DNA of 64,000 nucleotides from Asterias amurensis (lineage: Eukaryota > Echinodermata > Asteroidea > Forcipulatida > Asteriidae). Made by a program: the position numbers and the translations under genes. Position 1 is the stretch's first letter. The number at the start of each line of letters is the position of its first letter. The DNA lies in the NCBI RefSeq assembly GCF_032118995.1, contig NC_092653.1:22835202-22899201 (forward strand). Direction: 5' to 3'. The notes under the pieces are model-generated. The model was given only the letters and a program-made list of their open reading frames with translations, made no database searches and was not told the origin of the DNA. Shown here in pieces: positions 26,171 through 63,992 of this stretch.

Positions 26171-29100
26171 TCAGCCTTCACGACGCATTTTCATTTCACT
26201 CTTCACAATCTGTCTTCCTTCCCAAGTACTCCATCGCATCCCGCGATACTCCTGACTCGAATACTCGACGTAATACGAATCGTCGCCATTCAGGTTACTT
26301 TCCACAATCTTCTTATGGTAACTACCATAAGGGACACCAGAACAACGGTCAAACCACCAACCTCCCTCCAGTAGACCAGCACAGTTAGAAGCATCACCAT
26401 CGTTGTCGCGGTCATAGGTTGAGAATGGCCGGTTGTTGACCAGGTCAAGAACATCCCCTTGGGAAACAATTTTAATACATTTTAATACAATTTAGATCAG
26501 ACGCACATTGTTACAGAAATGGGCTGATAGTATCACCCCTGTCACAAATAATACTGGTTCGCGGAGTGAATGCTTGTAACTGCCTCTAAAATCAAGAGCA
26601 TCATTTTGGGCAACAATTTATTAACAACGTTTAGATCAGACGAACATCATAACATACATGGGCAGAAGGGTGTAGTATCACACCCCTGGCAACAAATACG
26701 GGTTCGTGGAGTGAAGTCAATCGTCTTTGAAGCAGCAGCGAAGATAAGGTACTATTTTAATGTGTAAATGGGGTGCACTGCTGTGAAGTTTATGCTGATG
26801 TATACATTAGCCAAACCACCAAAGGATGAATGTGGCCTAGACAACAACTCTATAATGGAAACCACCCAATCGCTCAGTCATATCTTTAAAAGTTTTTGCA
26901 GCAGTGTGCCTACCTTTGCAGCCAATAAGTTCGATGCGCATCGATGGCCATTCTCGATACCGAGTAGGTAGAACGCGAACGTACCGTGCACGTATGGGCC
27001 TCTGAAATATGCTTGTAACTGCCGCCACATCGTCGACGTTTCCTCGAAAGACCTGTATTAACAACGTAATGCATTTTAACATTGAGGGTTCATTGCATTC
27101 TAATATCCGGTTTGCTGTTGATAACTAGAGAGCACAGTATCTTTGTGAACTAATCTCTACCAAGGAAAGCAGTCGTGCTCTAAGATATGCAGGAACCCAC
27201 TTGGTAGAGTCAAGATCAAGAATAATTCGATACGGAGACCGTGCTTTCGCCAAAGCTGCTCCTGCCCTGTGGAATAAGCTCCGAATAAACCACCATCACT
27301 CGAAACCTTCGAGCATGTCAAGAAGGAAATAAAGTCACACTTGTTCACGTATATACTTACATTGGGTTTGATTTAACTACAGGTATTTTATGTTCCTACT
27401 TTTTTCTTTTTGTGTAGGCACCTTTTTCGGTTTTCTGGAGAAGTGCGCTGTATAAATCAATATAATAATTATTATTATTAAATCAACGACAACTTACCTT
27501 TGCTGTCTGCAAAGATGATCCACCGGAGTAATGCCATGTCGTCTGATCATCACTGTAGCTCACTTTGTATTGTGTGACCCAGTCCTTGTATGAATTCAAT
27601 GGATCCGTGCTGCCTTGTATAATGACACCTTCAACCTGATTCGTTGTCTCCAAATCCACTTGAAACCAGGGTGTTTGGAGGTCGCTAATTGCCGGACACC
27701 AGCCTCCTACGACCCCTTCGTTTCCTTCCTGGTTAAGACGCCCGTTCTTTGGCTTACAATTATCAGGTGGCCGCTCTTCTGGTGCTTTGTGAAAACTTGA
27801 TGCTGTAATTTGAGAGTCAGCGATGCTGCCGTCTTCCATTCCAAGACGTTGACCACAAATTCCGTGATCTTAAGATAAAATTAACATAAATTAAGCACAA
27901 ATTGGATTAAACCCAATTCAATTAAGTTCAACATAATTTATTCCCTTATTCCTCTATCATTATAAATACAGTGTAAACAAAGTGATTCAAGAATTTTAGG
28001 AATTGGGGGCACAGGCAAAACAGCACAGCTTGTGTTAGGGAGTGCCCATACAAAAACAATCACGAGATAAATACATACAGAACAGAGAAAGCACAATATC
28101 AACAAAACAACTCGAAACAAAATCTGAGGACAAAAATGCATCGTTTGTAAAAGAGGGCCTAGCATGAATTGAATAATTACGTCCAATCATTTGTTTGTCT
28201 CTTTATTTACCAATTGGTCCCATTCCTGAAGTCCCAACACTGATGTTGTAAAACTCTCCACTAACACGGAATTGAGATTTCGTCAAAGACCCTTCTATGC
28301 CCGTTTCATCTGTGAGATTCACACGGATAGTCCATGTGGACTCGGCTAGACCAGTCAGCAGACGGACTGCTTCATTACCAAGCCAGAACTCCCCTTGAAG
28401 GTTCCCAAAGCCTCTCTTGTACTCGCTCCAGTTCCGAGTGAAGTTCACAGATCCATTCAGACGTCTCTGAAACACCTGCACACAAGTAAACGATACACTT
28501 CTTTTACATGGTTGCGTCTTTATTTATTTGGATATTCAACCACTGTTAGGGGGAGGGGGAGTACTGAACTTTAAACGGATTGGTTGTCCAAAGAGTGCAT
28601 TGGCGTGGCCGAGAGGTTAAGATCACCGGACTCAAGCTCTGGTATTTCTGTTCAGCAGAGTGTGGGTTCAAGTCCCAGTTGTGACACTTGTGTCCTTAAG
28701 CATGAACGATTAACTAGTACTGCATCGTTCGTCCTTAGAATGGGACGAAGAGCCCTTGGTCCCGTGCGTTGTGCAATGCACGTTAAAGATAGCAGTAACA
28801 CTTGTCGCTTTGAGAGAAGGGGTTCACCCATGTGTTCCTTGCAATGGCTGCTAAATGCGCCATAGCACCCTGTGAACCATTTTAAGGTGCTACATAATGG
28901 GGTCTCAAAATTCATAACTTCAATAGCGTGTCTTTCTAAAACAATGTGTATTCTAAGCGCATTGAGTACCTTCTTGTTGGTAGATACATGCGCTATACAA
29001 GACTTCGGTATTATTATTATTCATTTCAATCATCTACTTCTCAAAGGCATATTTACCATACAATTCATCAACATTAAGTCGTCATGTTTGAACGAAACTA

Positions 29101-32022
29101 TTTCAGGTGGGAAAATATTTCTCCGGGACCAAAACAAAAGTTCAAATAAAAAGTTTAATTACCAGCCAGCCCGTAGTACCGTCCATGTCACAGTAAACGT
29201 CCAGCACCTCTGGCTGGTTGTTGGGCAAGTAGATAGTGTAGACACCACTCTCAGTGTTACCGGCATCCAACAACTCCTGACAGTCCTTGGGTTCATCATC
29301 TAAACAGTTTGTTGAAAATGTATTCATACTCTACATTGAAACTTAACAGTAGTTGCGATTTATTTGTATTGTTATAAATAGTGATGGGAAGAAAAAAACA
29401 CCTTGATGCTGTCAAAAACTCTCGGCATGTTGAAAATAGAACTCTTGTTCTACCATGGTGCTGCATAATGCATGCACTAGCTCGTTTGCACTCAGAGTTG
29501 GGACAGCAAACAGTTCATAGTTACAAGGTGTAATTTTTTGGGTACGGTGTTGGTGTAAAATAATATCCCATAACTTTCTTTTGTAAATGTTTGATCTATA
29601 TCAAGAGTATGGTTTGCAAAATTGACTTTATGTTATGCTTGTATGGGCTCTATGTATTCATCGATACAGAAGTTTTGACATTCTGACACATTTAAGGTAT
29701 TTGAATTTGTTGAGGATGCTATGAGTACACAGATCATGGAAATGGTGTATTAACACATCTAAACCTCTATTCATTGAAGTGATGGGAAAATCCTTCTTGA
29801 AAGCCAGTACAGATGAAACAAAATATCAACAAATGTGTATTTTAACCAGTGATTATAAGGACGTTACTTGGTATGATTAGAAATTTGAAAGTTAAAAGCT
29901 TTTATATGTAATGAACTGTTAAATTAAAAAGGCTAAATTTTTCAATTTGCGCCTTTAACCGATTAGCCACTGGACCGCCCAGCCGCCTAGCGATACACTG
30001 TATGCGGTAGGAGGAAACCTCGCTAGCTTGTGTTTGTAGAAAAAAAAGGAACATCAACAGAAAACATGATAGTCATTATGTAGGTCTACGCATTTGTTAA
30101 CCCATCTAGTTTTTTATAGATCATTACTAATTCTCCCTTCATAGTTGACTTGTCGAAGCTAATGATGATGAAATAATTCAGCTCTTACCCAACAAAATGC
30201 TCATTAGTAAACACAAAGGAAACTATATTTATTAATCATTCATGATGGTATTGTCGAAAACTAACGCCTTCGCATTTGATCAGTATGATCACTGAGCCAG
30301 ATAAAAGCCTTGAACAGCTATTGTGTCCATTTTATCCTTAATACAAAAAAATATTCGCCATAAAAATTACCATAGCCGTTTAACGAGAGGCATTTATTGT
30401 TCCCATGAGAACTTGTACTTTAGAAATATTACCGAAAGGGGTAACAAATTGTGCATAAATATTAAGCCATGGCTATCTTTTAAAATTTGAACTACGATCA
30501 GGGACTAGAGGGATAAAATGATATTTGGGTGGCTAAAATTCATCCTCCATTTCGGGCTTTGGTACATGTTTAGTGATACTTTGAACATGGAAAAGCAGGT
30601 GCAGATGCAGGAAATTTGTGGGAGGGGTAGGGGTCAGGCCCCCCCCCCCCAAAAAAAAAAAAATGTTTTTGATTCACCAAAATGCATAAGTGCAAGACTT
30701 GTTGACTCTCCTATCCCCTGCAGAATGTAATATTTTGTAATTTCAGTGACGTCTACTTAATTATTTATTTATTTTTTTTTTTTTTTTGGGGGGGGGGGGT
30801 CAGAGCAAGTGGTATTGAAATCTTGTCATCTTGGTTTGAGCTGGTCATCGTAAAACCCATGTGATCCTGTCATTATCTCATCAAATTTTTGTCATAATGT
30901 TTGAGCTGGGGATCGTAACCCATGATCCTGTCATTGTCTTATCAAAATCTTGTCATCTTGGTTTGAGCTGTTCAACGTGATCCTATTGTCTTATCAAATT
31001 CTTGTCATATTATTGCTTTGAGCTGGTCATCGTAACCCATGATCCTATCACTGTCTTATAAAAATCTTGTCATCTTCTTGTTTGATCTGGTCGGTAACCA
31101 TCATGATCTTAGGCCTTTTTCTGTATATAGGCTCTATGGATTGTATATATGCATGAATTTGATGTTTTACTTCGTTTATAAATTACTCACAATGGCAGTT
31201 AAAATAATCATGAATCATCTCTATGTCGTCAGTAAACATAGGTCGATCAGTGTAGTATGGCTCAACATGTCTGTTTGGTGCCATGGCGTTTACACCCCCT
31301 GGTAATATAACGGCGCAAGAACACCGTTCTTGATGGCTACCCGGCATCACCCATCTGAGCTTGCCGTGATGATCCGGCTCTTGCTCAAAATAACATACTT
31401 TGACTGCAGCTCCTTCACTGACAACTAGAAAAGAAAATCCCGTAATAGTTTAACGTGCGCACATGATGTTTCTAAATATATCAATATCAAGTTTCCCGAA
31501 CTGTTAAACGTATAGGCAACAAATGCTATAAGAAAATTCTTACCTTGAGATCTTTGCCGTTTATTTATTTTCCTTTATTTATTTATGTCAAGATCTTTAA
31601 AGACACTGGACACTATTGGTAATTGTCAAAAACCAGTCTTCTCACTCGGTGTATCTCAAAATATGCATAACACAAAAAAAAACTGTGAAAATTTGAACTC
31701 ATTTGGTTGTCGAAGTTGTGGGATAATAATGGAAGAAAAAACACCCTTGTCACATATAAGTTATGTGCCTTCAGATGATTGATTGCGGGACCTCAACATT
31801 TAATTCTGAGTTCTCGAAATCAAACTCGTGGAAATTTTTTTTTTTTTCTTAGAAACATCGTTACTTCAGAGGGAGCCTGTTTTCACAATGTCTTATACTA
31901 TCAACAGTTCTCCATTGCTTCTATTAATTACCAAGTATGAAGAAAAAGAAGTAGAGTAAGACAAAACTTAGCTTACCGCATAAGAAGACCATCAAGGCGC
32001 CTGTCGACAATAAAGAGTCCAT
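26171..32022 (-). CDS. Lectin gene 1: secreted FBG protein with an inserted F5/8C domain
   Basis: Exons (5' to 3'): 32022-31977, 31424-31191, 29299-29163, 28475-28211, 27868-27498, 27052-26914, 26457-26171; 1479 nt, 492 residues. Exon 1 encodes the signal peptide MDSLLSTGALMVFLC. Exon 2 holds the unrecognised four-cysteine domain (CYFEQEP, ERCSC, NCH). Exons 3-4 are the N-terminal FBG half (DCQELLDAG, VYCDMDG, FWLGNEAVRLL, WTIRVNLTDE). Exons 5-6 form an F5/8C domain (ICGQRLGMEDG to RIELIGC). Exon 7 completes FBG (FSTYDRDNDGDASNCAG, WWFDRC, SNLNGDD, RGMRWSTW, EMKMRREG). It is the most diverged copy: the discoidin part is 11 residues longer, the last exon carries an extra loop after WWFDRC, and the end is REG rather than RNN. 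Predicted extracellular lectin-like protein; ligand unknown. Confidence 0.87.
27140..27480 (+). mobile_element. LINE 3' end in intron 5 of lectin gene 1
   Basis: The translation contains IIRYGDRAFAKAAPALWNKL, then after a frame change TFEHVKKEIKSHLFTY, the conserved C-terminus of jockey/CR1/L2-like reverse transcriptases. It ends in gcgctgtataaatcaatata followed by ATT repeats. That tail resembles the tails of the SINEs in this window. It is antisense to the host gene and carries a frameshift. Confidence 0.8.
28598..29023 (+). mobile_element. Near full-length tRNA-derived SINE in lectin gene 1
   Basis: In the intron between exons 3 and 4 (29162-28476). The head gcgtggccgagaggttaaga is a Leu/Ser tRNA-like A box, gtgtgggttcaagtcccag is the B box, and the body ends gctatacaagacttcggtattattattatt. 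This is the fullest copy in the window. Confidence 0.8.
30640..30800. repeat. Homopolymer tracts
   Basis: A C10 tract followed by a run of A near 30640-30662, and a long T run followed by G10 near 30768-30800. Such tracts are prone to assembly or length error. Confidence 0.8.
30805..31110 (+). repeat. Minisatellite, about 60-bp unit, four to five copies
   Basis: In intron 2 of lectin gene 1. Each unit reads roughly aatcttgtcatcttggtttg agctggtcatcgtaacccat gatcctgtcattgtcttatc, with small indels. It ends shortly before the gene's second exon. Confidence 0.8.
31597..31937 (+). mobile_element. TTAA MITE family A, right end lost
   Basis: Starts ttaaagacactggacactat and follows the family body to attaccaagta. 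The right inverted repeat is missing. It lies in intron 1 of lectin gene 1, about 40 bp from the signal-peptide exon. Confidence 0.8.
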
Positions 32023-35870: not shown

Positions 35871-36048
35871 AGCGTACTTGTAATCTTCTATCTATTACTA
35901 ATTTTTATTATTATTACAATTTTGAAGTTGCTTGCATCAAGATTTGATGATATATACAGCATTTCTAAAAAAAAAAAAAGGACTGAATAGTTAACTACTG
36001 ATGTTAGAATTGATTGCATCCCGCAAACAAAAATTACTATGGTCTGCT

Positions 36049-39000
36049 TTAGTTATTGCGACGCATCTTCATTTCGGTCTTGACAATTTGTCGTCCCTGC
36101 CAAGTGGACCAGCGAATACCGCGATACTCCAGACCCGAAGCGCTCACTCGATGCGAATATTCGCCGTTCAGGTTCGATTCTACTGCACAGTCATCGAACC
36201 ACCAACCTGCCTTGACGACATCTGCACAGTTTTGGACATTGTTGTTGTCATTGTCGTTGTCATAGGTTGAGAACGTACGGCCATTCAACGACTCAAAAAC
36301 ACCACCTGATAAGAAATAAAGGAAAATTGATATACGAGAAAACAACTATAGTGTTTTAAGCTGAAGCCATTTGAACTAAAATGAGCCTAGGCCTTACCTT
36401 CAAATTGTAAACATCCTTGAAACTTGACTGAAATAAGCCCTATTAAACCGAAACCGCTTGAAGAATCTATGCGAATACTAAAATGCAATCACTAAAAAAA
36501 TACTTTGGTTTTGCAACTATGGGTCTTTGTTTTGGCACATTTCATTCTTCATTTTGAAAGTTCACCCAATGTGTGTCCAGAAGTTGAAAGTCCATTGACC
36601 TCATTGGATATCGGATCAAGTCATGAAATCGATAGTTTCTTACGTTTGCAACCAATGAGCTCAATCCGCATTGATGGCCACACGTTATAATCTGTCGGTT
36701 TGATGCGGATGTACCGTGCTTGAACAGGCTCGTCGAACATGCTGGTAACGGGGGTATTATGATCCGTATTGCCATCGAATACCTGTATAGGGAAGCACAT
36801 TTCCAATAGCTTGAATTGTGTTTATATTGCAACAATTTACATCGGTAGAGCATGGCAATCCCAGAATAAAGTTTGTCCGTGGAGGTTACCTTTGTTATTA
36901 TCAATTATGCATTTGTTGAAAAGCAACGTCAGCCACGTGTTCAAATAGAACAAGAATTCTGTTACCAGCAAAACGAAAAAAAACAAACACGTTTTTTTAA
37001 AAAAGCAATTTCTCTGTCGCATCGATTTACTCACCTGTGCTGTAGCCGGAGTTGTTCCACCAACGTAGTCCCATTGTGTCTGGTCGGAACTATACTCCAC
37101 TGTGTACTTTTTTACCCACTCCTTATCGGAAGAAAGATAACTTCCTTGCATAATGACACCTTCAACCTGGGTCTGTATCTTTAGATCCACCTGAAACCAT
37201 GATGCTTCCACTGCATTTGTTTGAGAGCACCAACTACCTCCCACCTGGTTTAGACGCCCATTAACCTCAGAACAATAACCCGGATCAGCTTCGTAGACAC
37301 CTGATGATGTGATGCTCGAATCAGGAATGGTTTTGTCTTCCATTCCGAGGGGTTGTTCACATTTCCCACTATCTAAACAAAAAAAATCAAAGCGCGGTTT
37401 GAAATTACTTGAAATATCAATTCTCTATATCGTAAGTAAAAAGTGGGAAGGGAGGAGAAGAATTCCTTGCAAAAAAGAACAACAAAACTCGTGCAGAATA
37501 AATGTTTCTTTCTTAGTGGATTCAAGGTTTTTATTACGTGACACATACTTTGTAAACGTCAACCTTTCGGCATTAGGCATAATAAGTAAGTTACGTTCCA
37601 TACCTGGCTCAATTCCAGGGCTTCCAACATAGAGGGCGTACTTGTCTCCAGTAATGCTGAAGGGTGATATCATCATAGACATTTTCTGACCCTCTTCATC
37701 TGTGAGATCCACACGGATTGTCCAATTAGATCCATCCTTAGTCAGCAGACGGAGTGCTTCATTTCCAAGCCAGAATTCACTGCTGACATCACCAAAGCCT
37801 TCTCTGTACTCGAGCCATGTCCGAGTGAAGTTCACAGACCCGTCTTGGCGCCTTTGAAAAACCTTGGAATAAAACCAACAGAGAGCGCGCTATCAATAAA
37901 TCGGCCGTTTTTCATATGAAAGCGTGCTTAAATTTTGGTATCTCTTTATTTAGCATCGTTTGTATGGAGAAATTTTGTTTTGTCATTTACGCCGAAAATA
38001 TCGGCTAGCGAAAGTGAAGTTTGGTGCTATTTATTTCAATTGACTTACCATCCAGCCTTTGTCACCTTCCATGTCACAGTAGACTTCTTTCGTGCCTGTA
38101 GGTGATTGTAAACCGATGTGGTAAACTCCACTGGTAGTGCTTCCGGTATCAAGCCAAGCTTGGCAGTCGGCATGTTCTGAGATCAAAGACAAAAGCTATT
38201 TAATTGTGATGAAACATTTGGGTCATATTTGAGAAAGCAAATTTGTGTTTACTGTAGCATAAAAATGTGCGTAAGTATTAAGGTATTTCACCTTGATTTC
38301 TCAAGAAGGCAAAACATTTCTAAGGCTATGGTGCGCATGCACATTCACATTGGATTTCATTGTTGCGTCACTTGCGTGCTTACCACGGGTGAGTCAGCAT
38401 TTACCCTTGCTTTCGGTAAACAGCTTTATGAAATATAAATTATGCCAAGGGACGCCCCGTAAGCACAAAACGGCTGCTTACATGTTTTATGAAATTGGGC
38501 ACAGGCTTTGAATATGTTTGGGAAGATAAAACAAAACATTGTTCTTATTTCACAATAAAACGACAAGGTGTCTGGGAACCAAATCGCCCATGAAACAAAA
38601 ACGAAGGATTTTAAGCGGCACAAACAGACATGGCAGAATAATACCAACTCGACCGTAGAGTCATACACCATAGAGGCAATAATTACCTTGTGTCTTTTTA
38701 GTGGTCATCATGCTTTCATCATGACAATCGAAGTAATCGTGAATCTTTTCTACGTCTTGAGTGAACAGTGGTTGATCGGTGTAGTATTTTTCGTACGGTG
38801 TCTTCGTTGCCCTTGTGTTTACTCCTCCTGCTAAGATGTTCGTACACGAGCAGCGTTCGTCTTTACTACCTACCATCACCCATTGGAGTTGATGTCCACG
38901 GCTAGGATTGGGCTCTTGAGCAAAGTAACACACCTTTGCTGAGACTCCTGCATGTATTGTAACAAAAATTGCCAGCGTTAAAAATTTAAAAACCAAAACA

Positions 39001-39483
39001 TCGGAAATTGTAGAAAACAATTCAAACCGTTTTCTATAGAAAATTGCATGCTTTATACAATTATTATACACAGCCCATATTTACAACAACGTATCAATGC
39101 GCTTTATACATAAGTGCCCTTTGCTCATTGGCTAGTATCATTCCTTAATTGTTTCTCAGCTCCTTTTTGAGTATTTAACATTGAGCTGCCATTGTTCCAA
39201 TTGTGTTTTCTTTTCAAACATAATTTAAACCCTACCCTCGCAGAGGTACCCGTTCATACCAACTTGGTGCAGAGAAGCAATTATAGTGAAGTGTCTTTCT
39301 CAAGGACACAATTAGTATCATGACCCGGATTTAATAACGCACCAGCCACGAAACCCTTACATAAGAAACTGCCTTAAGATCGAGGGTATCTGCTCTTAGA
39401 TACCAAAAATACAAATATTCTTAATAATTATGCTTACCTCCAATGAGTACCATCAGTGCCACTATAGAAAGAAAGCTGCACAT
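36049..39483 (-). CDS. Lectin gene 2: secreted FBG protein with an inserted F5/8C domain
   Basis: Exons: 39483-39438, 38947-38687, 38176-38049, 37862-37604, 37372-37035, 36782-36644, 36305-36049; 1428 nt, 475 residues. Signal peptide MCSFLSIVALMVLIG. The four-cysteine domain is the most unlike its sisters (CYFAQEPNPSRG, ERCSCTNILAGG, FDCHDES). FBG first half: EHADCQAWLDTGSTTSGVY, VYCDMEGDKGW, FQRRQDG, FWLGNEALRLLTKDG, WTIRVDLTDEEG, YALYVG. The F5/8C domain runs from KCEQPLGMEDK to RIELIGC; both cysteines that normally pin its ends together are present. FBG second half: NGRTFSTYDNDNDN (calcium loop), NCA and WWFDDCA (second disulfide), SNLNGEYS, RWSTWQGRQ, MKMRRNN. This is the most compact copy, with introns of about 260-500 bp. 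FBG lectins (ficolins, tachylectins, FREPs) bind acetylated sugars; discoidin domains bind sugars, lipids or collagen. The protein's real ligand is unknown. Confidence 0.9.
39095..39355 (-). mobile_element. Diverged SINE in intron 1 of lectin gene 2
   Basis: Reverse-complement relation to the family: gcgctttatacataagtgcc, gtttctcagctcctttttga, ctaccctcgcagaggtaccc, ctcaaggacacaattagtatcatgacccgg. The B box is degraded. It matches the copy at 47992-48350 in the same order. Confidence 0.65.
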
Positions 39484-45600: not shown

Positions 45601-47050
45601 GGTAAACTCCACTGGTAGCGCTACCGGCATCAAACCAAGCTTGACAGTCAGCATGTTCTGAGAGAGAAAACAAAACACCCCCAAAACATCGATTTTTTTA
45701 GGGACATTTTAGCTTGAACTGCATTGGGAATTTTTTTTCCCCAAAATGCATTTGGGAAGAATTATTTCTTTTTAAAAGTTGGCCCGATATGTCAGGACCA
45801 AAATGCAACCCCCCCCCTCAAAAAAAATGGGGGAGAAAGAAAAAAAAGAGCAAAGAAGAAGAAGAAGAAGAATACACGAATGGAGTTTTTATACAGGCCT
45901 GATAGATAAATGATCCAACTCGACCATAGAGTAAAACTAACCTATAGTCTTTTTGGTTACCACGCTTTCATCATGACATTCGAAATAGTCATGAATCTCT
46001 TCTACGTCATCAGTGAACAGCGGTTGGTCGGTGTAGTATGGTTCATAGGATCTCTTCGGTTCTATCATGTTGACTCCCCCTGGTAATAGAACAGCACAAG
46101 AGCAGCGTTCTTGTTGGGAACTAGGCATCACCCATCGGAGCTTTCCTTCATGGTCCGGCTCTTGCTCAAAATAACACGTCTTCTGTGCTCCTGTGCCTAA
46201 ACAAAGGAATACGATGTTATAGAAATGTATGAAGCTATAGCGTGTGGCTCTTTCGTAAGAGAGCACATTTTTTCAAGCCTTCTACATGTCATAACTTAAT
46301 TATAAAGATAGCGAGAGTTACAAATTACAATGTCTGTAAATGGATTTGTGAATCATAAAGATAATGTCAAGAAAGCTCCCTCAGTGTCGTCAAATGGCGC
46401 CCTATTATGTCCCATTATGACGCCAGTCTTTCATCATTGTAATGGGTAAGAACATTTCGAACCGTACGGAAATGGATGGGAACACTGATTTTAGTATAAC
46501 CATTATCAATGAGCAACAATGGCTTCGACCAAAATGCTCCACTGCTAATAATAATAGTGAGACCTTGCACTTCCAATGAAAAAGTGCTACTCTATTTATT
46601 TTGTAACGTACCAACATTATGTGGTCTTGCAGCAATACAACAATTTGTTTTGTCTTAAGTATGACACAACTGCACTACGCTAAGCCACACTAGGAAATGC
46701 ACGGAGTTATTTTTCTCCTATGTGTACTCGTCTAAATAAGTGTCGTAGTCTGTCCTCATTATAGAGATGTGTCTCTTAACGATGAAAATACAAAATCGTG
46801 TAAGGTAGCTCGATTAGTTTACTTGACTATCCGATGCCTTACAAATTACAGTCTTTAGAATTAGAAGAAGAACAAATATATTCGTTTTTCGTATATTTGT
46901 TTTTCTTGCAAATGTTTAAAAAGAAATTGCCTCGAATTCGATGGTATGTAAAAAAAAAATTACAAAGAGTATACAAAAAGAAATAATTGTTTTAAAACGC
47001 TTACCTCCGATGAAGACCATCAGTGTCACCACGAAGAGAAAGGTGCACAT
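42652..47050 (-). CDS. Lectin gene 3: secreted FBG protein with an inserted F5/8C domain
   Basis: Exons: 47050-47005, 46196-45942, 45657-45521, 44966-44705, 44311-43980, 43243-43105, 42905-42652; 1425 nt, 474 residues. Signal peptide MCTFLFVVTLMVFIG, close to gene 2, as is the 5' flank. Cysteine domain: CYFEQEPDHEGKLRW, ERCSCAVLLPGGVN, FECHDES. FBG exon 3 is three codons longer than in genes 2, 4 and 5 (SHTGMKEKKDVYCHMED). F5/8C reads TCHQRLGMEDN to RIELIGC, two residues shorter, with SSHQSQWHYVGG. The end is MKMRRNK. On the mRNA the stop lies inside AATAAATAAA, so the first polyadenylation-like hexamer overlaps the stop; an ATTAAA follows about 60 bases on (plus 42588-42593). Intron 5 contains long T and G10 tracts (43680-43775). 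Confidence 0.9.
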
Positions 47051-48350: not shown

Positions 48351-48466
48351 ACTCTACAACAAACATTGCTTCAATTGATTCTCTTTAAACTTTTTAAATT
48401 AAACAGACACAACCGGCTCTTTAACTGTTGGTTGGATAAACCCTAACGATTGAACGATCTATTCAT

Positions 48467-50057: not shown

Positions 50058-53000
50058 TTAATTATTGCGACGCATCTTCATTTCGGTCTTTACAATTTGT
50101 CGTCCCGGCCAAGTGAACCAACGAATACCGCGATACTCCAGACCCGAATCCAATCGATGCGAAAATTCGCCATTCAGGTTCGATTCTACTGCACAGTCAT
50201 CGAACCACCAACCTGCATTGACGAGACCTGCACAGTTTTGACCATCGTTGTCATTGTCGTTGTCGTAGGTTGAGAACGTACGGCCATTCAACGACTCAAA
50301 AACACCACCTGGAAAGAAATAAGAAAAATTAAATAGGGACTACGAGAAAATAGTCATTTTTAAACAATAAGCCTATTAAACAAAATAACAAAAATACTTT
50401 GGTTTTGCAATTTAGCCGTGGTTTTGGCATAATGTTATTCTTCATTTGAAAGTCCAACCAACAACAAGTTGAAAGTCCATTGACATCAGTCGATATCGGA
50501 GAAAGTCGTGAAACTGATAGTTTCTTACCTTTGCAACCAATGAGCTCAATCCGCATTGATGGCCATTCGTTGTACGCTGTCGGTTTGATGCGGATGTACC
50601 GTGCTTGAACAGGCTCGTCGAACATGCTGGTAACGGGGGTGTCATGGTCAGTATTGCCATCGAATTCCTGCAAAGGAGCACATTTCCAATAATTTGAACA
50701 TGTAAATGTATAGCAACAATTTACATCGGTAGAGCATGGCAATGCCGGAATGCAAAATTTCCAGACCGCCGACACTAAAAAGAAGTAATCATGAATACCT
50801 TTTGTAAAAGAAAATAAAAAATTACAAGTACATAGAAATTCACTCGCACCATTTACCATTTGAGTTGTAATTTGAGTTACGGTAAAAATGTAATGGAAAA
50901 TCATGGTTTTCCGTTAGTTGTTGATAAATTTAACATAGCTTTGTTGCAAAACAGTGCCAGTCTTGTGTTACACTATAATTAAACCATTGTTATATAAAAC
51001 AGACAATATTAATTGATATAGATTAATGATCAAATGCTTTATACTCAGCATACGATATCACATTTCTTTGTATGTGCATTCCAAGATCAAGCCAATGATG
51101 TGGTCAGCCAATGAGTGCACATGATTGGCATGACGCTTGTTACATTTTGGAGGGAAATTCGGTTGCTTAGCGTCACTTTGTCACAGCTTGTGAATCAAGT
51201 CAACGTTTTACAACACAACGAAAAATAACACATTAAAACAATCACACATTCGCATCGATTTACTCACCTGTGCTGTAGCCGGAGTTGTTCCACCAACGTA
51301 GTCCCATTGTGTCTGGTCGGAACGATACTCCACTTTGTACTTTTTTACCCACTCTTTATCGGTAGAATAGTAACTTCCTTGCATAATGACACCTTCAACC
51401 TGGGTCTGTATCTTTAAATCCACCTTAAACCATGATGCTTCCACTGCATCTGTTTGCGAGCACCAACTGCCTCCCACCTGGTTTAGACGCCCATTAACCT
51501 CAGAACAGTAACCCGGATAATCTTTGTGGAAACCTGATGATGTGATGCTCGAGTCAGGAATGGTTTTGTCTTCCATTCCAAGGGGTTGTTCACATATCCC
51601 ATCGACTGAATACAAAAAAGCAATTACTTGAGGTATAATTTTTTATATTTCTTAAAAAAGGCAGGAGAGGCAAAAAATACTTTATAGCAAAATAAAAGAA
51701 CAACAACAAATGATTAATGCAAATATTATTGGAAATTAAATTTGTAATTAAATTGTTACTCTATCTACTTGATTTGAGGTGTTTACACCAAGATACATTT
51801 CGTAATTGTCAACTTTTCGGCATTGGGTCTATTAAGTAGAATACTTTCCGTTATACCTGGCTCAATTCCAGGGCTTCCAACACTGAGGGCGTACTTGTCT
51901 CCTGTAATATAGAAGGGTGAAGTAATCAGAGACAATTTCTGACCCTCTTCATCTGTGAGATCCACACGGATTGTCCAATTAGATACATCCTTAGTCAGCA
52001 GACGGAGTGCTTCATTTCCAAGCCAGAACTCGCTGCTAACATCACCAAAGCCTTCTTTGTACTCGAGCCAAGTCCGAGTGAAGTTCACAGACCCATCTTG
52101 GCGCCTTTGGAAAACCTTGCAATACAATCAACAGAGGGAAGCCCACATTTAATTGGTCAAGCCGATATATTTATAGTTGTATGAAGAAAGCGTGCCTCCA
52201 CAAATGTACCTCTAACATGAAAAATAATGTGATATTACGTTGGCACATATGAGGGCGCTGTTTGGTTTGGGTTATCTCACACCACTTTAAATTACCCTGT
52301 TTAGCAGCTCAGTTGTGTCCACCCACAGCCAAGTGTTTACCATTTGCTCGTGTTTATCTATATAATTTGGTGGGATGTAGCAATCAAAATGTTTTTTTGG
52401 TATAAATTAATAAAATTAATTTTCAGCAACAGTTTAGCCTTGTTAGAATCCATTAATTGACTTACCACCCAGCCTTTGTCACCTTCCATGTCACAGTAGA
52501 CTTCTTTCCCGCCTGTATGTGATTGTATACCGATGTGGTAAACTCCACTGGTAGTGCTACCGGCATCAACCAAAGCTTGACAGTCGGTATATTCTGGGTG
52601 GAAGAACACCAGAATTTGTAAACATATTCAAGCAAAGCATACTTTACGTCCCTCAAAGTATGGTTCTTTATGACATAATTTTGTTTACTTCACTTGGTTA
52701 AAGAGAACCAAAATTACAAAGCCCGCGAGAAAATGTTTTCGAGGTCATTTACGGCGTGGCGTCGGGCCCGGGAAGCTCTTCATAGACGTTCTGTCGTTCA
52801 ATCAGTTAGTTTCACTATTTGGAACATGTACCTTTGGGCCGTGCTGGAATAAATGTCCATTTGGGCCGTGCTGAAAATAGTAGCAGTGTAACATGCATAA
52901 TGATTAACCCTACAATGACGTAGAAAAGGCGAAGTTGGGTGAATTGGAAAAAACAGATGCAAATGATTGAATTAGCCAATATTCTGCCACAGTTAACGGT

Positions 53001-55776
53001 TTTCGGGTTCTATTGATGCTCTGTCCTGCAATCTGAGCCACTATTTGGCACTTGTTGTTTTGGTGGGGGATGTATAATTAATAAGAATATATAACTTTGT
53101 TATGTATATATAACTTGAAGACTAGTCTTCTCATGGTGTATCTCAACATATGCATAAAATAACGAACCTGTGAAAATTTGAGCTCAATTGGTCGTCGAAG
53201 TTGCGAGATAATTATGAAAGAAAAAACACCCTTGTCACACGAAGTTGTGTGCGTTTAGATGGTCGATACCTCAAGTTCTAAATCTGAGGTCTCGAAATCA
53301 AATTCGTGAAAAATTACTTCTTTCTCGAAAACTATGGCACTTCAGGGGGAGCCGTTTCTCACAATGTTTTATACCATCAACCTCTCCCCATTACTTGTCA
53401 CCAAGAAAGGTTTTATGCTAATAATTATTTTGATTAATTACCAATAGTGTCCACTGCCTTTAACTAAATTGCATTCATTAAGTGCCTCAACACTGTTTCA
53501 AAGCGCTGTACACTCAAATGCATTTATAAAACATAAGAATGGGGTCGAATAAGAACTGCACGTTGAGTACTCAGTATTAGTGCTTGACATACATCAGTGT
53601 AACACACAAACAATGTATGGGTCAAATGCAATTCCGGGTCCCGTTGGGGCCTGACCGATTTCGGGTCAGTACGAATCAGAGTCAAGAAGTGATACAAAAA
53701 AGGGTTAGTTGACCACTTTCTGTGTCCTAATGTAATCGAGATCATTATAGTATCTTCCGTGTGCAGTCTTCGTTGGTCAAGAAATTCAATATTTGATGGT
53801 TTGCCGTGCAAAACAGAGGAATGCAAGGTGTTTGGCACACCTCTCTCCTCATTGAACTTTCCTTGTCTACCTATTGCTTACTCCATCATGGTCAGAATAC
53901 CTCCATTGGGTGATTATTTTTGACCAAATTCTTATCGCCCGAGTTTGGCGTAAAAGGTAATTAATTTTCGAGCCTCTTTCAGTAAATTACTAATCTTGGT
54001 TCAAGTTTCTGAAGATGCCCAAGGCTTGTTATTTGCATGTCATTAATCGTCCTTTTCATTTAATGTCATAGATAACAAATTATGTCATGTTCGGAAGTGA
54101 TACTTCACTTAGGAACAATAGGTGCCTTTCGTTAAAGGTTACCCATAATTTTTAATGGTTATTAAAAATGTTGCACAACAATGTTTCTGAAGACTTTTCC
54201 CCCTGGCATCAAACGGTAAAACCACTCAACTGCCAAGTCATTGTTAGTAAAACCAATTAACTGCCAAGTTAGTATTTTGACATTATCATGCATAAAAGCT
54301 AAATAAATTCATCGTTAATTTCTTCATTATTTTAAAAGATGCACTTTGAAGAGGTCATGATCTATAACGATTTTCATAAACTGGAACAGTACGCGTACCA
54401 ATGTTGAGCACTAGCACAACGATAGCTTGTGAGAGTTCACCTACTGCATGTTACATTGTAATTGCTTTGGGCGGCTCTCGTCATTGGTTACCGCTAATTT
54501 TATGACGATTATTTTGTATAAGTAGGACAAAAACAACATTTGTGAAAGGCTTTGTTACATCATAAGTAATATCCCCATCACGGTTGACTGCTTGTAAAAA
54601 TGTTAATTTTTTTATGCAAGTTTGCCTCAAACAAGGCTAAAATCCACTCTAGGTAAGGGGCTGCAAGAAGAAAATGATTGAAAATGAAAATAACTCAGGA
54701 GAGCTGGAGGCAGGAATTGATATATTTCTCTAAAATAGTCCAGATCATAGGGTGGGGGAAACACCAGGCAAGGATTTCCAATAAGATGCAGTACGTAACG
54801 ATTGAATGTAATGTTCTTTCAGCCGACACGACATGGCAATTGTTCATTATGATAATTGTGATGCCAGGTAAAGGCTTTTAAATAGTTGATGGTTGGCTAA
54901 TTTCCAAGGTTGATCCGTCAATGAATTATTCGTTTGTCTAAGTTGTTGGTTTATTTATGAGGGGCTTTATTCGCTACTGAGCTGTGTGTTGCACACAATG
55001 AGTTCCCAGCTAATGGTGTTTTGTTTGCATTCAATAATTTTTTTCTCCAAAATTTATTTACCCATTTAATTGCGTTCTTTGTTAGGAATTCGTTAAGTTC
55101 TTTTGACTTTGAAATAACTTTTGTTTGTATCATGAAGAAAAGGTTAATTTAAAGCTGGATTTGTTTTTTCAGTTTGATTTTTTATTTTTACATTTACAGC
55201 TTACAATATTGTCATTATAGTAAAAAATTACTATCGGAACATGTTTTCAAAGCAACAAATTCTTCTTTAACATTTTCCCCTCCAAATTGCGAATCCCAAA
55301 CTGGTGTGATGCTTTGTTAACATACAAACACTACCTTGTCTAGTTTACCTTTTGTCTTTATAGTAGTCATCGTGCTTTCATCATGACAATCGAAATAGTC
55401 ATGAATCTCCTCTACGTCATCAGTGAACAGCGGTTGGTCGGTGTAGTATAGTTCATACGGTCTCTTGGGTGCCCTTCGATTGACTCCCCCTGGTAGTATA
55501 ACGGTACATGAGCATCGTTCTTGTTGGGTGAGAGGCATCACCCAGCGGAGTTTGCCTTCATGGTCAGGCTCTTGCCCAAAATAACACTTCTTTGCTGTGA
55601 CTGGGGAAAAACAAACATACAAAATAATGACATAAATAACATTGAATGGATGGTGTTACAATGTATAAAGCATTTCTAATAAGCATTCACTTTTCGCCAA
55701 TTGACATATTGTACCATGTATGTGTCTCTTATAGGTACAAACACACGTGTTCGGTTACTGCTTTTGCATCACAAAA

Positions 55777-55809
<33 letters not shown>

Positions 55810-57135
55810 CATGAACCAGACTAATGAGCCAATCTATACCGACTTTGAGAAAACCAATGCAATGTCGTAAATAGTGTGCATAGCATACCATGCACACAAA
55901 ATTCTAGGTTTGTCAGGTAATTTTTCCCATTTACTCCCCATATTTTAAGGATGGTGTCACAACTTCCAAAACGATGACAAAATGTAAGCCAAACATTTTG
56001 GTACTTTTTTTAGTTGTGACAGTGAGCTTTACATTGCCTAAAGAAAAACGCAATTCGCACACTTCGTTTCTAATGTCTTTCTGTCAAAGGGTATCAGCGT
56101 TGCCATACCGCATACAAACTATTTAAGCAATTACTCGAACTGCAACCATCTGCGGGGATTATTCAGATTATTCTTCAAAACTTCCGGGTCATGATTGACC
56201 TTGATCAGTGTTTTGTTCTGATCTTACCCGTTTTGGGGTCAGTACAGTATGAAACTTAATGAATAGTGTATGTCTATATAAATGACACGTAAATGTGTTA
56301 AAATAACCTTGTATCCGGGTTAACAATTCCATTTTCAAACCACTTGTGGGGTCACTTGAAACCTCACATTTTTTCCGTATAAACTCAGGGGTCAGTATGT
56401 CACTATGCATAACTTATTTAGTGTTCAAATGGTTTAAAGAAGATGGTTCACACAAATTCCTCGAAGATGTGCTGCATGTTTTCTGTTTACTTCGTGAACT
56501 AACCAATGAATCGGATTTTTTTTTACAATTTTTGCTTAGCCTACCTAAAATAGACCCCTGTACTGATGACGTCACGATTTATTTACCGCATTGCTTAAAA
56601 TGATGTTATACATGACTAGAGATACAATGGTTTCATCTATTCCGGAATTTGTATCAGTTGTAGTTGACAAACATTGGTATTGATGGGCAAGTTAACTATG
56701 TGTAAATAATTTTTCACCGTAGGTAGTTGATGACGCTGGCAAAGCCAAACAGTAACATTCCCAAACTGTAAGTAACATTCCCAAACTGTTTCAATATCTG
56801 TCCACTATTAAAGTGAAACTACGTAATATAAGTTCACGAAATGAACATAAACCAATTTATGAAAACAAACCAATTTTGAATTGAATTGAAAAATTGATAA
56901 CGTTCTCACAATGGTCATGAACGCAACTTCCCCCAAATAATTCACCCGCCTTTCGACACGGCCATACGCCAGAATTGAACTGACAGTTTTGAAGTTGCAC
57001 ATTATGCGTACATTCTTCGCCTATTTTTCTATTTCTGGTATCTCTGCAGCGCTACTTTTACATATTTTAATGCAAGGTGATGGTCTTACCTGCATGAATA
57101 GTAAACAAGAACACGGCGGTTTGCAGAATGTCCAT
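50058..57135 (-). CDS. Lectin gene 4: secreted FBG protein with an inserted F5/8C domain
   Basis: Exons: 57135-57090, 55600-55349, 52593-52466, 52115-51857, 51605-51268, 50667-50529, 50308-50058; 1413 nt, 470 residues. Signal peptide MDILQTAVFLFTIHA, unlike genes 2 and 3. The mature start VTAKKCYFGQEPDHEG leads into the cysteine domain (ERCSCTVILPGGVNRR, FDCHDES). FBG halves and F5/8C (ICEQPLGMEDK ... RIELIGC) are nearly identical to gene 5. The FBG calcium loop is STYDNDNDNDGQNCAG. A minus-strand AATAAA (plus 50027-50032) follows the stop by about 26 bases, so the 3' UTR is very short. The intron between exons 2 and 3 is 2.8 kb and holds a MITE absent from gene 5. Start context GCCATGG is strong. 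Confidence 0.9.
53115..53463 (+). mobile_element. TTAA MITE family A, left end lost, specific to gene 4
   Basis: The body runs from agtcttctcatggtgtatct to gtgtccactgcctttaa. The equivalent site in gene 5 (near 62330) lacks it: tatatataacttataactaa is uninterrupted there. About 35 bp of the left end are missing. Confidence 0.8.
53900..55320. repeat. Duplicated intron segment, gene 4 copy
   Basis: 54170-55320 is nearly identical to 62610-63715 in gene 5. A 67-codon open frame on the plus strand (54678-54881; 63069-63272) is carried along in both; one residue differs. It lacks features of a gene and is explained by recent duplication. Confidence 0.8.
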
Positions 57136-59235: not shown

Positions 59236-59272
59236 TTTATTTTGAAAAAATACCACTTCCAGGTGACTTTAA
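58712..59272. mobile_element. TTAA MITE family C at the gene 5 stop codon
   Basis: A 553-bp element between TTAA duplications (58712-58715 and 59269-59272). Terminal repeats are agtcacctggaa and ttccaggtgact. The empty site is preserved in gene 4 (acacgctttaattattgcg at 50051-50069). It contains a 95-bp imperfect palindrome: arms 58866-58960 and 59009-59106, both with tgacgtcaatcgaggcagac on opposite strands. On the minus strand the loop region encodes MPTRCIAAECRKT, which resembles the start of a THAP zinc-finger domain. Confidence 0.88.
59236..59241 (-). terminator. Polyadenylation signal supplied by the MITE (gene 5)
   Basis: Minus-strand AATAAA, 28 bases after the gene 5 stop and inside the inserted element. 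The ancestral signal, homologous to 50027-50032, is now at 58681-58686, about 555 bp further away. Confidence 0.65.
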
Positions 59273-62200
59273 TTATTGCGACGCATCTTCATTTCGGTCT
59301 TTACAATTTGTCGTCCCGGCCAAGTGAACCAACGAATACCGCGATACTCCAGACCCGAATCCAATCGATGCAAAAATTCGCCATTCAGGTTCGATTCTAC
59401 TGCACAGTCATCGAACCACCAACCTGCCTTGACGACATCTGCACAGTTTTGGACATTGTTGTTGTCATTGTCGTTGTCGTAGGTTGAGAACGTACGGCCA
59501 TTCAACGACTCAAAAACACCACCTGATATAATAAATAAAGGAAAATTTAAATAGGGACTACGAGAAAATAGTCATTTTAAAACAATAAGCCTATTAAACA
59601 AAATAACAAAAATACTTTGGTTTTGCAACTTAGCCGTGGTTTTGGCATAATTTTATTCTTCATTTGAAAGTCCAACCAACAACAAGTTGGAAGTCCATTG
59701 ACATCAGTCGATATCGGAGAAAGTCGTGAAACTGATAGTTTCTTACCTTTGCAACCAATGAGCTCAATCCGCATTGATGGCCATTCGTTGCACGCTGTCG
59801 GTTTGATGCGGATGTACCGTGCTTGAACAGGCTCGTCGAACATGCTGGTAACGGGGGTGTCACGGTCAGTATTGCCATCGAATTCCTGCAAAGGAGCACA
59901 TTTCCAATAATTTGAATATGTAAATGTTTAGCAACAATTTACATCGGTAAAGCATGGCAATGCCAGAATGCAAAATGTCCAGACCGCCGACACTAAAAAG
60001 AAGTCATCATGAATACCTTTTGTAGAAGAAAATCAAAAATTACAAGTACATACAAATTCACTCACACCATTCACCATTTGAGTTGTAATTTGAGTTACGG
60101 TAAAAATGTAATGGAAAATAATGGTTTTCCGATAGTTGTTGATAAATTTAACATAGCTTTGTTGCAAAACAGCGCCAGTTTTGTGGTACACTACAATTAA
60201 ATCATAATTGTTATATAAAACAGACAATATTAATTGTTATAGATTAATGATCAAATGCTTTATACTCGGCATAATGATATCACATTTCTTTATCTGTATG
60301 TGCATTTCATGATTGCCAATCTGGCCTGGTTGCAGGCTGTAATGATGGGCGGATCAACAAGATCAAGCCAATGATGTGGTCAGCCAATGAGTGCAAATGA
60401 TTGGCATGACGTTTGTTAAAAAAATCACATTAAAACAATCACACATTCGCATCGATTTACTCACATGTGCTGTAGCCGGAGTTGTTCCACCAACGTAGTC
60501 CCATTGTGTCTGGTCGGAACTATACTCCACTTTGTACTTTGTTACCCACTCGTCATCAGTAGAAGTATAACTTCCTTGCATAATGACACCTTCAACCTGG
60601 GTCTGTATCTTTAGATCTACCTGAAACCATGATTCTTTCAGTGCATCTGTTTGCGAGCACCAACTGCCTCCCACCTGGTTTAGACGCCCATTAACCTCAG
60701 AACAATAACCCGGATCAGCTTCGTAGACACCTGATGATGTGATGCTCGAATCAGGAATGGTTTTGTCTTCCATTCCGAGGGGTTGTTCACATATCCCATC
60801 GACTGAATAAAAAAAGCAATTACTTGAGGTATAATTTTTTATATTTCTTTTAAAAGGCAGGGGGAGAGGCAAAAAGTACTTTATAGCAAAATAAAAGAAC
60901 AACAACAAATGATTAATGCAAATATTATTGGAAATTAAATTTGTAATTCAATTGTTACTTTTTCTACTTGATTTGAGGTGTTTACACCAATATACATTTC
61001 GCAAATGTCAACTTTTCGGCATTGGGTCTATTAAGTAGAATACTTTCCGTTATACCTGGCTCAATTCCAGGGCTTCCAACACTGAGGGCGTACTTGTCTC
61101 CTGTAATATAGAAGGGTGAAGTAATCAGAGACAATTTCTGACCCTCTTCATCTGTGAGATCCACACGGATTGTCCAATTAGACCCATCCTTAGTCAGCAG
61201 ACGAAGTGCTTCATTTCCAAGCCAAAACTCACTGCTTACATCACCAAAGCCTTCTCTGTACTCGAGCCAAGTCCGAGTGAAGTTCACAGACCCGTCGTGG
61301 CGCCTTTGTAAAACCTTGGAATAAAATCAACAGAGGGCAGCCCATATTTAATTAGTCAAGCCGATATCTTTACAGTTGTATGACTAAGAAGAAAGCGTGC
61401 CTCCACAAATTGTATCTCTAACATATCTGGTGTTTTAGAGAAATAATCTGATATTACGTTGGCACATAGGAGGGCGCTGTTTGGTTTTGGTTTATCTTAC
61501 ACCACTTTAAAATACCCTGTTGAGCTGTTCAGTTGTGTCCACCCACAGCCAAGTGTTTACCATCTGCTCGTGTTTATATATATAATTTGGTGGGATGTAG
61601 CAATCATAATGTTGTTTTGGTATATTCTGCTGTATGCAGTATACGAAAAAATTAATGTCGAGCAACAGTTTAGCCTTGTTTTAATCAATTAATTGACTTA
61701 CCAACCAGCCTGAATTGTTTTCCATGTCACAATAGACTTCTTTCCCGGCTGTATGTGATTGTATACCGATGTGGTAAACTCCACTTGTAGTGCTACCGGC
61801 ATCAAACAAAGCTTGACAGTCGGTATGTTCTGTTTGGAAAATAAAAACAGAATTTGTAAATGTTATATTCAAGCAAAGCATGCAGACTTTACTACCCTCA
61901 ATGCACTGTCTTTGATGACATAATTTTGTTTACTTCACTTGATTAAAGGGACCTAAAATTCCAAAGCCTGCGAGAATTTGTTTTAGAAGTCAATTACGGC
62001 GTTGCGTCCGGGCCCGCTTAAGGGCCCTGGAAGCTCTTCATAGATGCTCTGTCGTTCAATCAGTTACACAATTTGAAACATGTCCCTTTGGACCGTGCTG
62101 GAATAATAGTAGTGTAACATGCATAATGATTAACCATACAATGACGTGCATAAGGCGAAGTTGAGTAAATTGGAAAAACCAGATGTAGTTTTCCGGCATG

Positions 62201-63992
62201 GCTGAGGGCCCAAAAGTTTTCAGGTCCCATTGATGCTCTGTCGTGCAATCTGATCCACTATTTGGCACTTGTTTGTTTTGTTGGGGATGTATAATATATG
62301 AATATATAACTTTGTTATGTATATATAACTTATAACTAAATTGCATCCATAAAGTGCTTTAACACTGTTTCAAAGCGCTGTACAGTCAAATACATTATAA
62401 AAGAAAAACATAAGAATGGGGTCGAATAAGATTTTAATGCATGTTGAGTACCGGTATTCAGTATTAGTGCTTGACATCAGTGTATACCCTCTAAAAACTG
62501 ATGGGTCAAATAAACTTCCGGGTCCCGTTTGGGCCTGACCGATTTCGGGTCAGTATGATCCGGGATCAGGGTCAAGAAGTGTTTAAAACTGGATGACAGT
62601 AATGTTTCTCAAGGCTTTTCCCCTGGCATCAATCGGTAAAACCAATTAACTGCCCAGTCATTGTTAGTATTTTGACATTATGCATAAAAGCTAAGTAAAT
62701 TCATCGTTAATTTCATCATCATTTTAAAAGATGCACTTTGAAGAGGTCATGATCGATAACGATTTCCATAAACTAGAACAGTACGCGTACCAATGTTGAG
62801 CACTAGCACAACGATAATATGTGAGAGTTCACCTACTGCATGTTACAGTGGATTGCTTTGGGCGGCTCTCGTCATTGGTTACCGGTAAATTTATGACGAT
62901 TATTTTGTATAATTAGGATAAAAACAAAATTTGTGAAAGGCTTTGGTACATCATCAGTAATTTTCCCATCACGGTTGACTGCTTGTAAAAATGTTAATTT
63001 TGTTATGCAAGTTTGCCCCAAACAAGGCTAAAATCCACTCTAGGTAAGGGGCTGCAAGAAGAAAATGATTGAAAATGAAAATAACTCAGGAGAGCTGGAG
63101 GCAGGAATTGATATATTTCTCTAAAATAGTCCAGATCATAGGGTGGGGGAAACACCAGGCAAGGATTTCCAATAAGATGCAGTACGTAACGATTGAATGT
63201 AATGTTCTTTCAGCCGACACGACATGGCAATTGTTCATTATGATAATTGTGATGCCAAGTAAAGGCTTTTAAATAGTTGTTGGTTGGCTAATTTCCAAGG
63301 TTGATCCGTCAATGAGTTATTTGTTTGTCTAAGTTGTTGGTTTATTTATGAGGGGCTTTATTCGCTACTGAGCTGTGTGTTGCACACAGTGAGGTCCCAG
63401 CTAATGGTGTTTTTTGCATTAAACAATTTTTTTCTCCAAAATTTATTTACTCATTTAATTGCGTTCTTTGTTAGGAATTCGTTAAGTTCTTTTGACTTTG
63501 AAATAACTTTTGTTTGTATCATGAAGAAAAGGTTAATTTAAAGCTGGATTTGTTTTTTCAGTTTTATTTTTTATTTTTACATTTACAGCTTACAATATTG
63601 TCATTATAGTAAAAAATTACTATCGGGACATGTCTTCAAAGCAACAAATTCTTCTTTAACATTTTCCCCTCCAAATTGCGAATCCCAAACTGGTGTGATG
63701 CTTTGTTAACATACAAACACTACGTTGTCTAGTTTACCTTTTGACTTGATAGTAGTCATCGTGCTTTCATCATGACAATCGAAATAGTCATGAATCTCCT
63801 CTACGTCATCAGTGAACAGCGGTTGATCGGTGTAGTAGGGCTCATACGGTCTCTTGGGTGCCCTTCGATTGACTCCCCCTGGTAGTATAACGGTACATGA
63901 GCATCGTTCTTGTTGGGTGAGAGGCATCACCCAGCGGAGTTTGCCTTCATGGTCAGGCTCTTGTTCAAAATAACACTTCTTCTTCGCTGTGA
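59269..63992 (-). CDS. Lectin gene 5: FBG protein with an inserted F5/8C domain (5' exon outside window)
   Basis: Exons in the window: 63992-63738, 61829-61702, 61314-61056, 60802-60465, 59885-59747, 59522-59269; 457 residues. The signal-peptide exon must lie beyond 64000. The first visible exon opens at a cactcag acceptor with VTAKKKCYFEQEPDHEG, one Lys more than gene 4. All domains are intact: cysteine domain, FBG first half (EHTDCQALFDAG ... CDMENNSGWL), F5/8C (ICEQPLGMEDK ... RIELIGC), FBG second half (STYDNDNDNNN, NCA, WWFDDCA, MKMRRNN). The end of exon 5 is ACAT before gtgagt where its sisters have ACAG, changing Gln to His and the donor's last exon base. The stop codon lies inside the TTAA used by the adjoining MITE. 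Confidence 0.9.

Follow-up and report, generated by a model that had tools for sequence, protein, structure and literature searches.

Five tandem genes with a discoidin domain inside a fibrinogen domain

Positions 26171-63992 of a 64,000-nucleotide stretch of the sea star Asterias amurensis genome (hereafter, the window) hold five tandem genes on the minus strand (A to E), in which a discoidin (F5/8C) domain interrupts a fibrinogen C-terminal (FBG) domain. They share a common exon plan: one exon for a putative signal peptide and one for an N-terminal module are followed by two exons for FBG, two for F5/8C, and a last one for FBG. In 5/5 genes, the encoded chain runs from a first FBG portion (DCQ...YALSVG; FBG-N) through the two-exon F5/8C domain to a second FBG portion (FSTYDNDND...NCA...WWFDDC; FBG-C). 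Specifically, exon 4 (FBG part 2) stops after the YALSVG strand, and exon 7 carries the calcium loop and the last disulfide. The gene models listed below were hand-built from conserved peptides and splice signals and then checked by splicing.

Gene A, 63992-59269, minus strand, exon 1 beyond the window
63738..63992, minus, exon 2, N-terminal module (splice model)
61702..61829, minus, exon 3, FBG part 1 (splice model, Pfam)
61056..61314, minus, exon 4, FBG part 2, end after the YALSVG strand, phase-1 donor (splice model, Pfam)
60465..60802, minus, exon 5, F5/8C 5′ part (splice model, Pfam)
59747..59885, minus, exon 6, F5/8C 3′ part, phase-1 donor (splice model, Pfam)
59269..59522, minus, exon 7, FBG part 3 (calcium loop, last disulfide) and stop (Pfam)

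Gene B, 57135-50058, minus strand, seven exons
57090..57135, minus, exon 1, putative signal peptide (hydrophobicity and donor, without signal predictor)
55349..55600, minus, exon 2, N-terminal module (splice model)
52466..52593, minus, exon 3, FBG part 1 (splice model, Pfam)
51857..52115, minus, exon 4, FBG part 2 (splice model, Pfam)
51268..51605, minus, exon 5, F5/8C 5′ part (splice model, Pfam)
50529..50667, minus, exon 6, F5/8C 3′ part (splice model, Pfam)
50058..50308, minus, exon 7, FBG part 3 and stop (splice model, Pfam)

Gene C, 47050-42652, minus strand, seven exons
47005..47050, minus, exon 1, putative signal peptide (splice model)
45942..46196, minus, exon 2, N-terminal module (splice model)
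45521..45657, minus, exon 3, FBG part 1 (splice model, RefSeq P0002)
44705..44966, minus, exon 4, FBG part 2 (splice model, RefSeq P0002)
43980..44311, minus, exon 5, F5/8C 5′ part (splice model, RefSeq P0002)
43105..43243, minus, exon 6, F5/8C 3′ part (splice model, RefSeq P0002)
42652..42905, minus, exon 7, FBG part 3 and stop (splice model, RefSeq P0002)

Gene D, 39483-36049, minus strand, seven exons
39438..39483, minus, exon 1, putative signal peptide (splice model)
38687..38947, minus, exon 2, N-terminal module (splice model)
38049..38176, minus, exon 3, FBG part 1 (splice model, Pfam)
37604..37862, minus, exon 4, FBG part 2 (splice model, Pfam)
37035..37372, minus, exon 5, F5/8C 5′ part (splice model, Pfam)
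36644..36782, minus, exon 6, F5/8C 3′ part (splice model, Pfam)
36049..36305, minus, exon 7, FBG part 3 and stop (splice model, Pfam)

Gene E, 32022-26171, minus strand, seven exons
31977..32022, minus, exon 1, putative signal peptide (splice model)
31191..31424, minus, exon 2, N-terminal module (splice model)
29163..29299, minus, exon 3, FBG part 1 (splice model, Pfam)
28211..28475, minus, exon 4, FBG part 2 (splice model, Pfam)
27498..27868, minus, exon 5, F5/8C 5′ part (splice model, Pfam)
26914..27052, minus, exon 6, F5/8C 3′ part (splice model, Pfam)
26171..26457, minus, exon 7, FBG part 3 and stop (splice model, Pfam)

All 29 introns are GT-AG, partly by construction, since exon ends were picked with these dinucleotides in mind. 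The open frames and the intron phases are not products of the model building: frames remained open throughout the spliced models, and the phases after exons 1 to 6 were 1,1,0,1,0,1 in every gene without exception (gene A has five introns in the window). The F5/8C cassette made up of exons 5 and 6 is symmetric (phase 1-1) and measures 477, 471, or 510 bases. From its residue 59 on, the gene C model includes P0002, a 416-aa RefSeq protein of A. amurensis named "lactadherin-like," without a single mismatch, and P0002 is an annotation of gene C independent of the hand-built model. Past the window end, a further two window-type genes follow within 19 kb (G000:C6:22902950-22907097 and 22910028-22917876; loci L017-L019). 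In the first of these neighbors (Y), the last disulfide lacks its first Cys (NLTG in place of NCAG), and this gene may be in decay.

Domain matches and selection

Pfam searches of genes A to E returned two stretches of PF00147 (FBG; 160-173 bits versus a gathering score of 22, E-values of 8e-47 to 1e-50) and one stretch of PF00754 (F5/8C; 82-94 bits versus 28.2, E-values of 5e-23 to 8e-27) in 5/5 cases. E-values this low exclude a chance match to either family. The order FBG, two-exon F5/8C, FBG that the initial annotation had claimed for the five genes was thus confirmed in all of them with identical phases, and so was the expected split of PF00147 around a single PF00754, with blurred profile borders in genes C and D, where the best FBG stretch extends into the F5/8C part. 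In a phmmer comparison of gene B with PDB sequences, Angiopoietin-2 matched residues 100-222 and 385-458, a clean split, and the stretch between the two FBG halves matched the F5/8C domains of factor V. When the insert was cut out of gene B, the FBG domain was recovered as a single stretch scoring 142.7 bits versus 132.2 with the insert, and the insert alone aligned along its entire length with domains of factor V/VIII, neuropilin, and lactadherin. The FBG sequence is not continuous in these genes, as F5/8C interrupts it after the YxLxVG strand.

Segment-wise ratios of nonsynonymous to synonymous substitution rates (dN/dS) among the window genes were mostly 0.09-0.48. Higher values were obtained for F5/8C in the pairs A/B (0.69) and A/D (0.57) and for FBG-C in A/B (1.88, on a dS of 0.019), and one gene pair yielded no value for the N-terminal module. 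Each segment, F5/8C exons included, is under mostly purifying selection. Pseudogene status of genes A to E was ruled out, as their frames are open and spliceable and dN/dS is mostly <0.5. The divergences of the A/D segments disagree with one another, dS being 1.29 in the N-terminal module (exon 2) and 0.11 in F5/8C (exons 5-6). Such unequal segment dS among A, B, and D suggests gene conversion or recombination between tandem copies. The exon 2 module (e.g., 55349-55600) comprises 80 residues and contains Cys in all five genes; by eye, it is common to sea-star nested, FBG-only (P0021 and P0025), and F5/8C-only (P0026 and P0013) proteins. Pieces of this module from gene B and P0154 had no Pfam match up to an E-value of 10.

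Nested proteins of three sea-star species and the multi-insert type

Protein searches, which listed the best 120 of 1021 and the best 120 of 232 matches, yielded 239 different proteins, the first 232 of which were covered by a pattern scan. F5/8C was found between two FBG parts in seven: P0001 (Asterias rubens), P0002 (A. amurensis), and P0008 (Patiria miniata) with one insert each, P0005 (A. rubens) with two, and P0121, P0122, and P0123 (A. amurensis) with four. P0129 (Patiria) and P0131 (A. rubens) are partial sequences with the same domain order, P0131 being a C-terminal piece only. The seven proteins added later have no PF00147 in their precomputed domains. The same order thus occurs in proteins of A. 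rubens, A. amurensis, and P. miniata, and no nested member from outside the sea stars was found among the matches listed.

The multi-insert type was traced in the A. amurensis genome. The P0121 gene on C17 consists, in order, of the second FBG exon, four two-exon cassettes, and the last FBG exon; its first FBG exon was not among the matches, and by eye all outer cassette borders are phase 1. Among the best candidates scored, the last FBG exon of P0121 had 37 genome matches (2 on C17 and 35 on C10); some mirror-image pairs among them may reflect recent duplication or duplication in the assembly. F5/8C matches lie on the same strand ≤25 kb upstream at 34/35 of the C10 last exons, among the matches listed. 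Six of these 35 loci, selected and not random, were examined together with the C17 gene, and FBG-N, cassettes, and FBG-C occurred in this order at 7/7, with four cassettes in six loci and seven in one. In the gene that seems to hold seven (G000:C10:17974386-17994385; L047 and L048), a three-cassette block is present twice, and two extra 3′ pieces were also observed. The calcium motif DxDND is present in 5/5 window genes and absent from P0005, P0121, P0122, and P0123. In these four proteins, a His-rich stretch (HHHTD, HHHKD, or HHHTN) replaces the FBG calcium loop and might bind another metal.

An order of this kind could also arise as a gene-prediction or assembly artefact, through the merging of adjacent FBG and discoidin genes or the interleaving of exons from two. 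The RefSeq names of the nested proteins vary (lactadherin-like, coagulation factor VIII-like), which suggests that annotators saw parts only. However, order, phases, and splice sites agree across the five tandem genes, each segment is under mostly purifying selection, and the same exon order recurs in the two neighboring genes, the seven multi-insert loci, and predicted proteins of three species. The artefact is therefore extremely improbable, and merged genes were rejected as an explanation on the strength of the same plan in many copies and in the proteins of the three species.

Predicted FBG fold across the insert

AlphaFold2 models were those of the relatives P0001 and P0008, not of the window proteins. 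Superposition of the models of these two relatives covered 204/209 residues of the M-ficolin FBG domain at 2.1 Å and 213/218 residues of the L-ficolin FBG domain at 1.5 Å. Closure of the FBG fold across the nested discoidin domain, which had been put forward as a structural expectation, is thus strongly supported at the level of predicted structures. This structural comparison listed FBG rows only, so that the absence of other folds carries no meaning.

A phase-1 intron at the homologous loop of uninserted relatives

The uninserted Patiria paralogs read ESGDA/GDSL at the loop where, by eye, P0008 reads ESGDA-(F5/8C)-CKIT-GDSL, a comparison indicating that seemingly no FBG residues were lost at insertion. 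To locate the exon ends at the homologous loop in the A. amurensis genome, we read P0022-type (C6 and C9) and P0154-type (C4) relatives; the splice was fixed by annotated proteins for P0022 and P0154 and by homology for the other copies, which were called uninserted when no F5/8C match lay nearby among the matches listed. A phase-1 acceptor was found in 13/13 downstream exons and a clear phase-1 donor in 10/11 upstream exons, the eleventh being ambiguous. In many other FBG genes, a single frame encodes the domain, 150 scored matches spanning nearly the whole profile, although these were the best of 700 candidates and are hence biased toward unbroken ones. In 5/5 window genes, the cassette abuts a phase-1 intron on each outer side. 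Together, the cassette phases and the empty phase-1 loop intron are as predicted by class 1-1 exon shuffling into a pre-existing intron.

The likely origin of these sea-star fibrinogen-related proteins (FREPs) with nested architecture is, in our reading, exon shuffling into an older intron followed by multiplication. Specifically, a class 1-1 F5/8C exon cassette would have been shuffled into an older phase-1 intron inside the FBG domain, at the loop that follows the YxLxVG strand (GDAG/DSL in uninserted relatives). The two ends of F5/8C domains lie close together in known structures. Such close ends would let the FBG chain exit and re-enter at almost the same point, so that the globule closes and the insert becomes a second domain seated on a loop of FBG. 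The window type would have held one cassette and kept the FBG calcium motif, and in the related multiplied type the array would have expanded to four cassettes (in one gene, it seems, to seven), with loss of the calcium motif. Nested-domain proteins produced by exon shuffling are known, a close-ended domain being tolerated in the loop of another. A described case involving FBG did not turn up in the literature searched. Such nesting is usually inferred in retrospect, whereas here the receiving intron survives in uninserted paralogs and the cassette was later multiplied. The exon-shuffling route to domain insertion thereby becomes directly testable, as one and the same species offers proteins with the site empty and proteins with it filled for comparison.

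Number of cassette captures

The FBG tree was built from 58 domain rows of 55 selected ids (50 of the 232 proteins plus the five window genes), after P0101, P0127, P0150, and P0154 were dropped at the domain-cutting filter; the FBG-N-only and FBG-C-only trees had 55 rows, with P0017 and P0031 also left out. In the 58-row tree, the Asterias nested proteins formed one group (100/90), and P0008 fell among the uninserted Patiria paralogs. A single clade of all nested FBG hosts was rejected in the approximately unbiased (AU) test (p 3.7e-68), as it was by FBG-N alone (p 3.1e-113) and, less strongly, by FBG-C alone (p 0.0096). Since the host trees reject one group, either this intron took up the cassette on two or more occasions, or a single capture was followed by transfer of the cassette from one paralog to another. 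In the F5/8C tree, all inserts fell in one sea-star group that includes free Acanthaster domains. The gene E insert did not group with those of A to D, being 60% identical to a free Acanthaster domain versus 56% to the A to D inserts.

A single capture in an ancestral sea-star FBG gene, with the cassette then transferred into the P0008 lineage of Patiria by recombination in the introns or by gene conversion of the FBG exons on either side, would mean that the double host origin is not a double capture. We regard this as a serious possibility that falls just short of an even chance. It would accommodate the inserts of all lineages in one sea-star group; neither a single clade of all inserts (AU p 0.096) nor the window type joined with Patiria (p 0.195) was rejected, and the unequal segment dS of the window copies fits exchange between tandem copies. 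However, FBG-N and FBG-C each place P0008 separately with the uninserted Patiria paralogs, and its N-terminal module is by eye of the Patiria type, so that all but the insert would need replacing. The best F5/8C tree likewise joins the Patiria inserts to free Acanthaster F5/8C domains, with a support of only 63/47.

Several observations weigh against the proposed shuffling and subsequent multiplication. The FBG-C-only tree needs three changes for the nested rows and does not join the window and multi-insert types. Pfam matches only the first FBG half in P0005 and P0121-P0123, and the C10 loci are exon matches, not spliced models, some of which may be broken. Confidence in the predicted structures was limited, with predicted template modeling scores (pTM) of only 0.56 and 0.59 for P0001 and P0008, a predicted local distance difference test score (pLDDT) of 59-70 over residues 401-470 of P0001 (the bulk of its last FBG part), and a pLDDT of <50 for about one third of the P0008 insert. 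Finally, the nested gene models, RefSeq ones included, are predictions, and skipping of exons 5-6 would preserve the frame. The latter point, which follows from the phase 1-1 cassette of 477, 471, or 510 bases, is what an alternative use of these exons would build on, with an ordinary FBG protein as the main product and the discoidin form as a minor isoform. This is improbable, as the P0001, P0002, P0008, and P0131 models all include the cassette and selection on the F5/8C exons is mostly purifying, as it is elsewhere in these genes.

Extending the proposed shuffling history, we put forward tentatively, and with some doubt, that the sea-star FBG domain may be an open scaffold. Its loop intron would have captured discoidin cassettes more than once, the clustered loci, dozens of them, would have come to differ in carrying between one and about seven cassettes within one FBG fold, and the recognition repertoire would have been diversified by intron-borne cassette duplication, not by point variation alone. 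The multi-insert type also raises the structural question of how four or more discoidin domains are placed on one loop of one FBG globule.

Relation to known systems and putative function

The window type resembles FBG lectins of the ficolin, tachylectin-5, and FIBCD1 type (PF00147) in fold, in the first and last disulfide regions, and in the DxDND motif. Unlike in these, its FBG chain is interrupted by F5/8C, and the second Cys of the last pair is followed by Ala in genes A to D and by Ser in gene E, instead of by the His found in 15/40 rows of alignment A3. This His belongs to the acetyl-group pocket, and its replacement makes it probable that the FBG ligand differs from that of ficolin. The initial annotation had described a nested two-lectin module; the nesting stands, but its two-lectin character is not established, given Ala/Ser at the ficolin-type His in 5/5 genes. 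The suggested projection of the discoidin domain near the ligand and calcium face of FBG is likewise uncertain, given the low pLDDT in about one third of the P0008 insert.

The F5/8C domains of factor V/VIII, lactadherin, and neuropilin (PF00754) are arranged in series along the chain. The gene B insert matches them over its full length and has Cys at both ends, but the window F5/8C lies within another domain. The lancelet proteins P0042 and P0132 carry both domains in one chain, but serially, with F5/8C first and then an unbroken FBG. Gastropod FREPs are likewise multiplied FBG proteins with a second recognition domain, but there the domains are in series, with an N-terminal immunoglobulin superfamily (IgSF) portion and a C-terminal fibrinogen-related domain (FReD) (PMC12074976, in part); the main text of that FREP review makes no mention of discoidin, echinoderm, or starfish. 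The initial annotation knew of no described family with this order, and a literature search by topic and locus tags returned no description of this architecture, most subscription journals lying outside the search. A large, so far unnamed sea-star protein class is hidden under lactadherin-like and factor VIII-like labels.

On the basis of the putative signal exon, the proteins are probably secreted. By analogy with invertebrate FREPs and lactadherin-like proteins, we infer that they may act as soluble multi-site recognition proteins, with an FBG face plus one or more discoidin faces, that would bind glycans, lipids, or cell surfaces, and they probably have a role in immunity or coelomic-fluid clotting. 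A role in adhesion, matrix, or regeneration instead of immunity is conceivable, although we favor it less. In its direction point the sea-star footprint proteins Sfp10 and Sfp11, which carry galactose-binding or FA58C domains (PMC9382459, in part), and the FREPs expanded and induced in sea-cucumber regeneration (PMC5638244, in part). The evidence is indirect either way, and the word "fibrinogen" appears nowhere in the main text of PMC9382459.

Other features of the window

An Rfam scan of the window returned 0 matches. On the plus strand, positions 22253-24700 may hold a small gene with hydrophobic exons, three pieces of which were tried and had no Pfam match. At the window edge, positions 1-186 of the minus strand encode a heavy-metal-associated domain (PF00403), and the adjoining L020 frames resemble, by eye, a copper-transporting ATPase.

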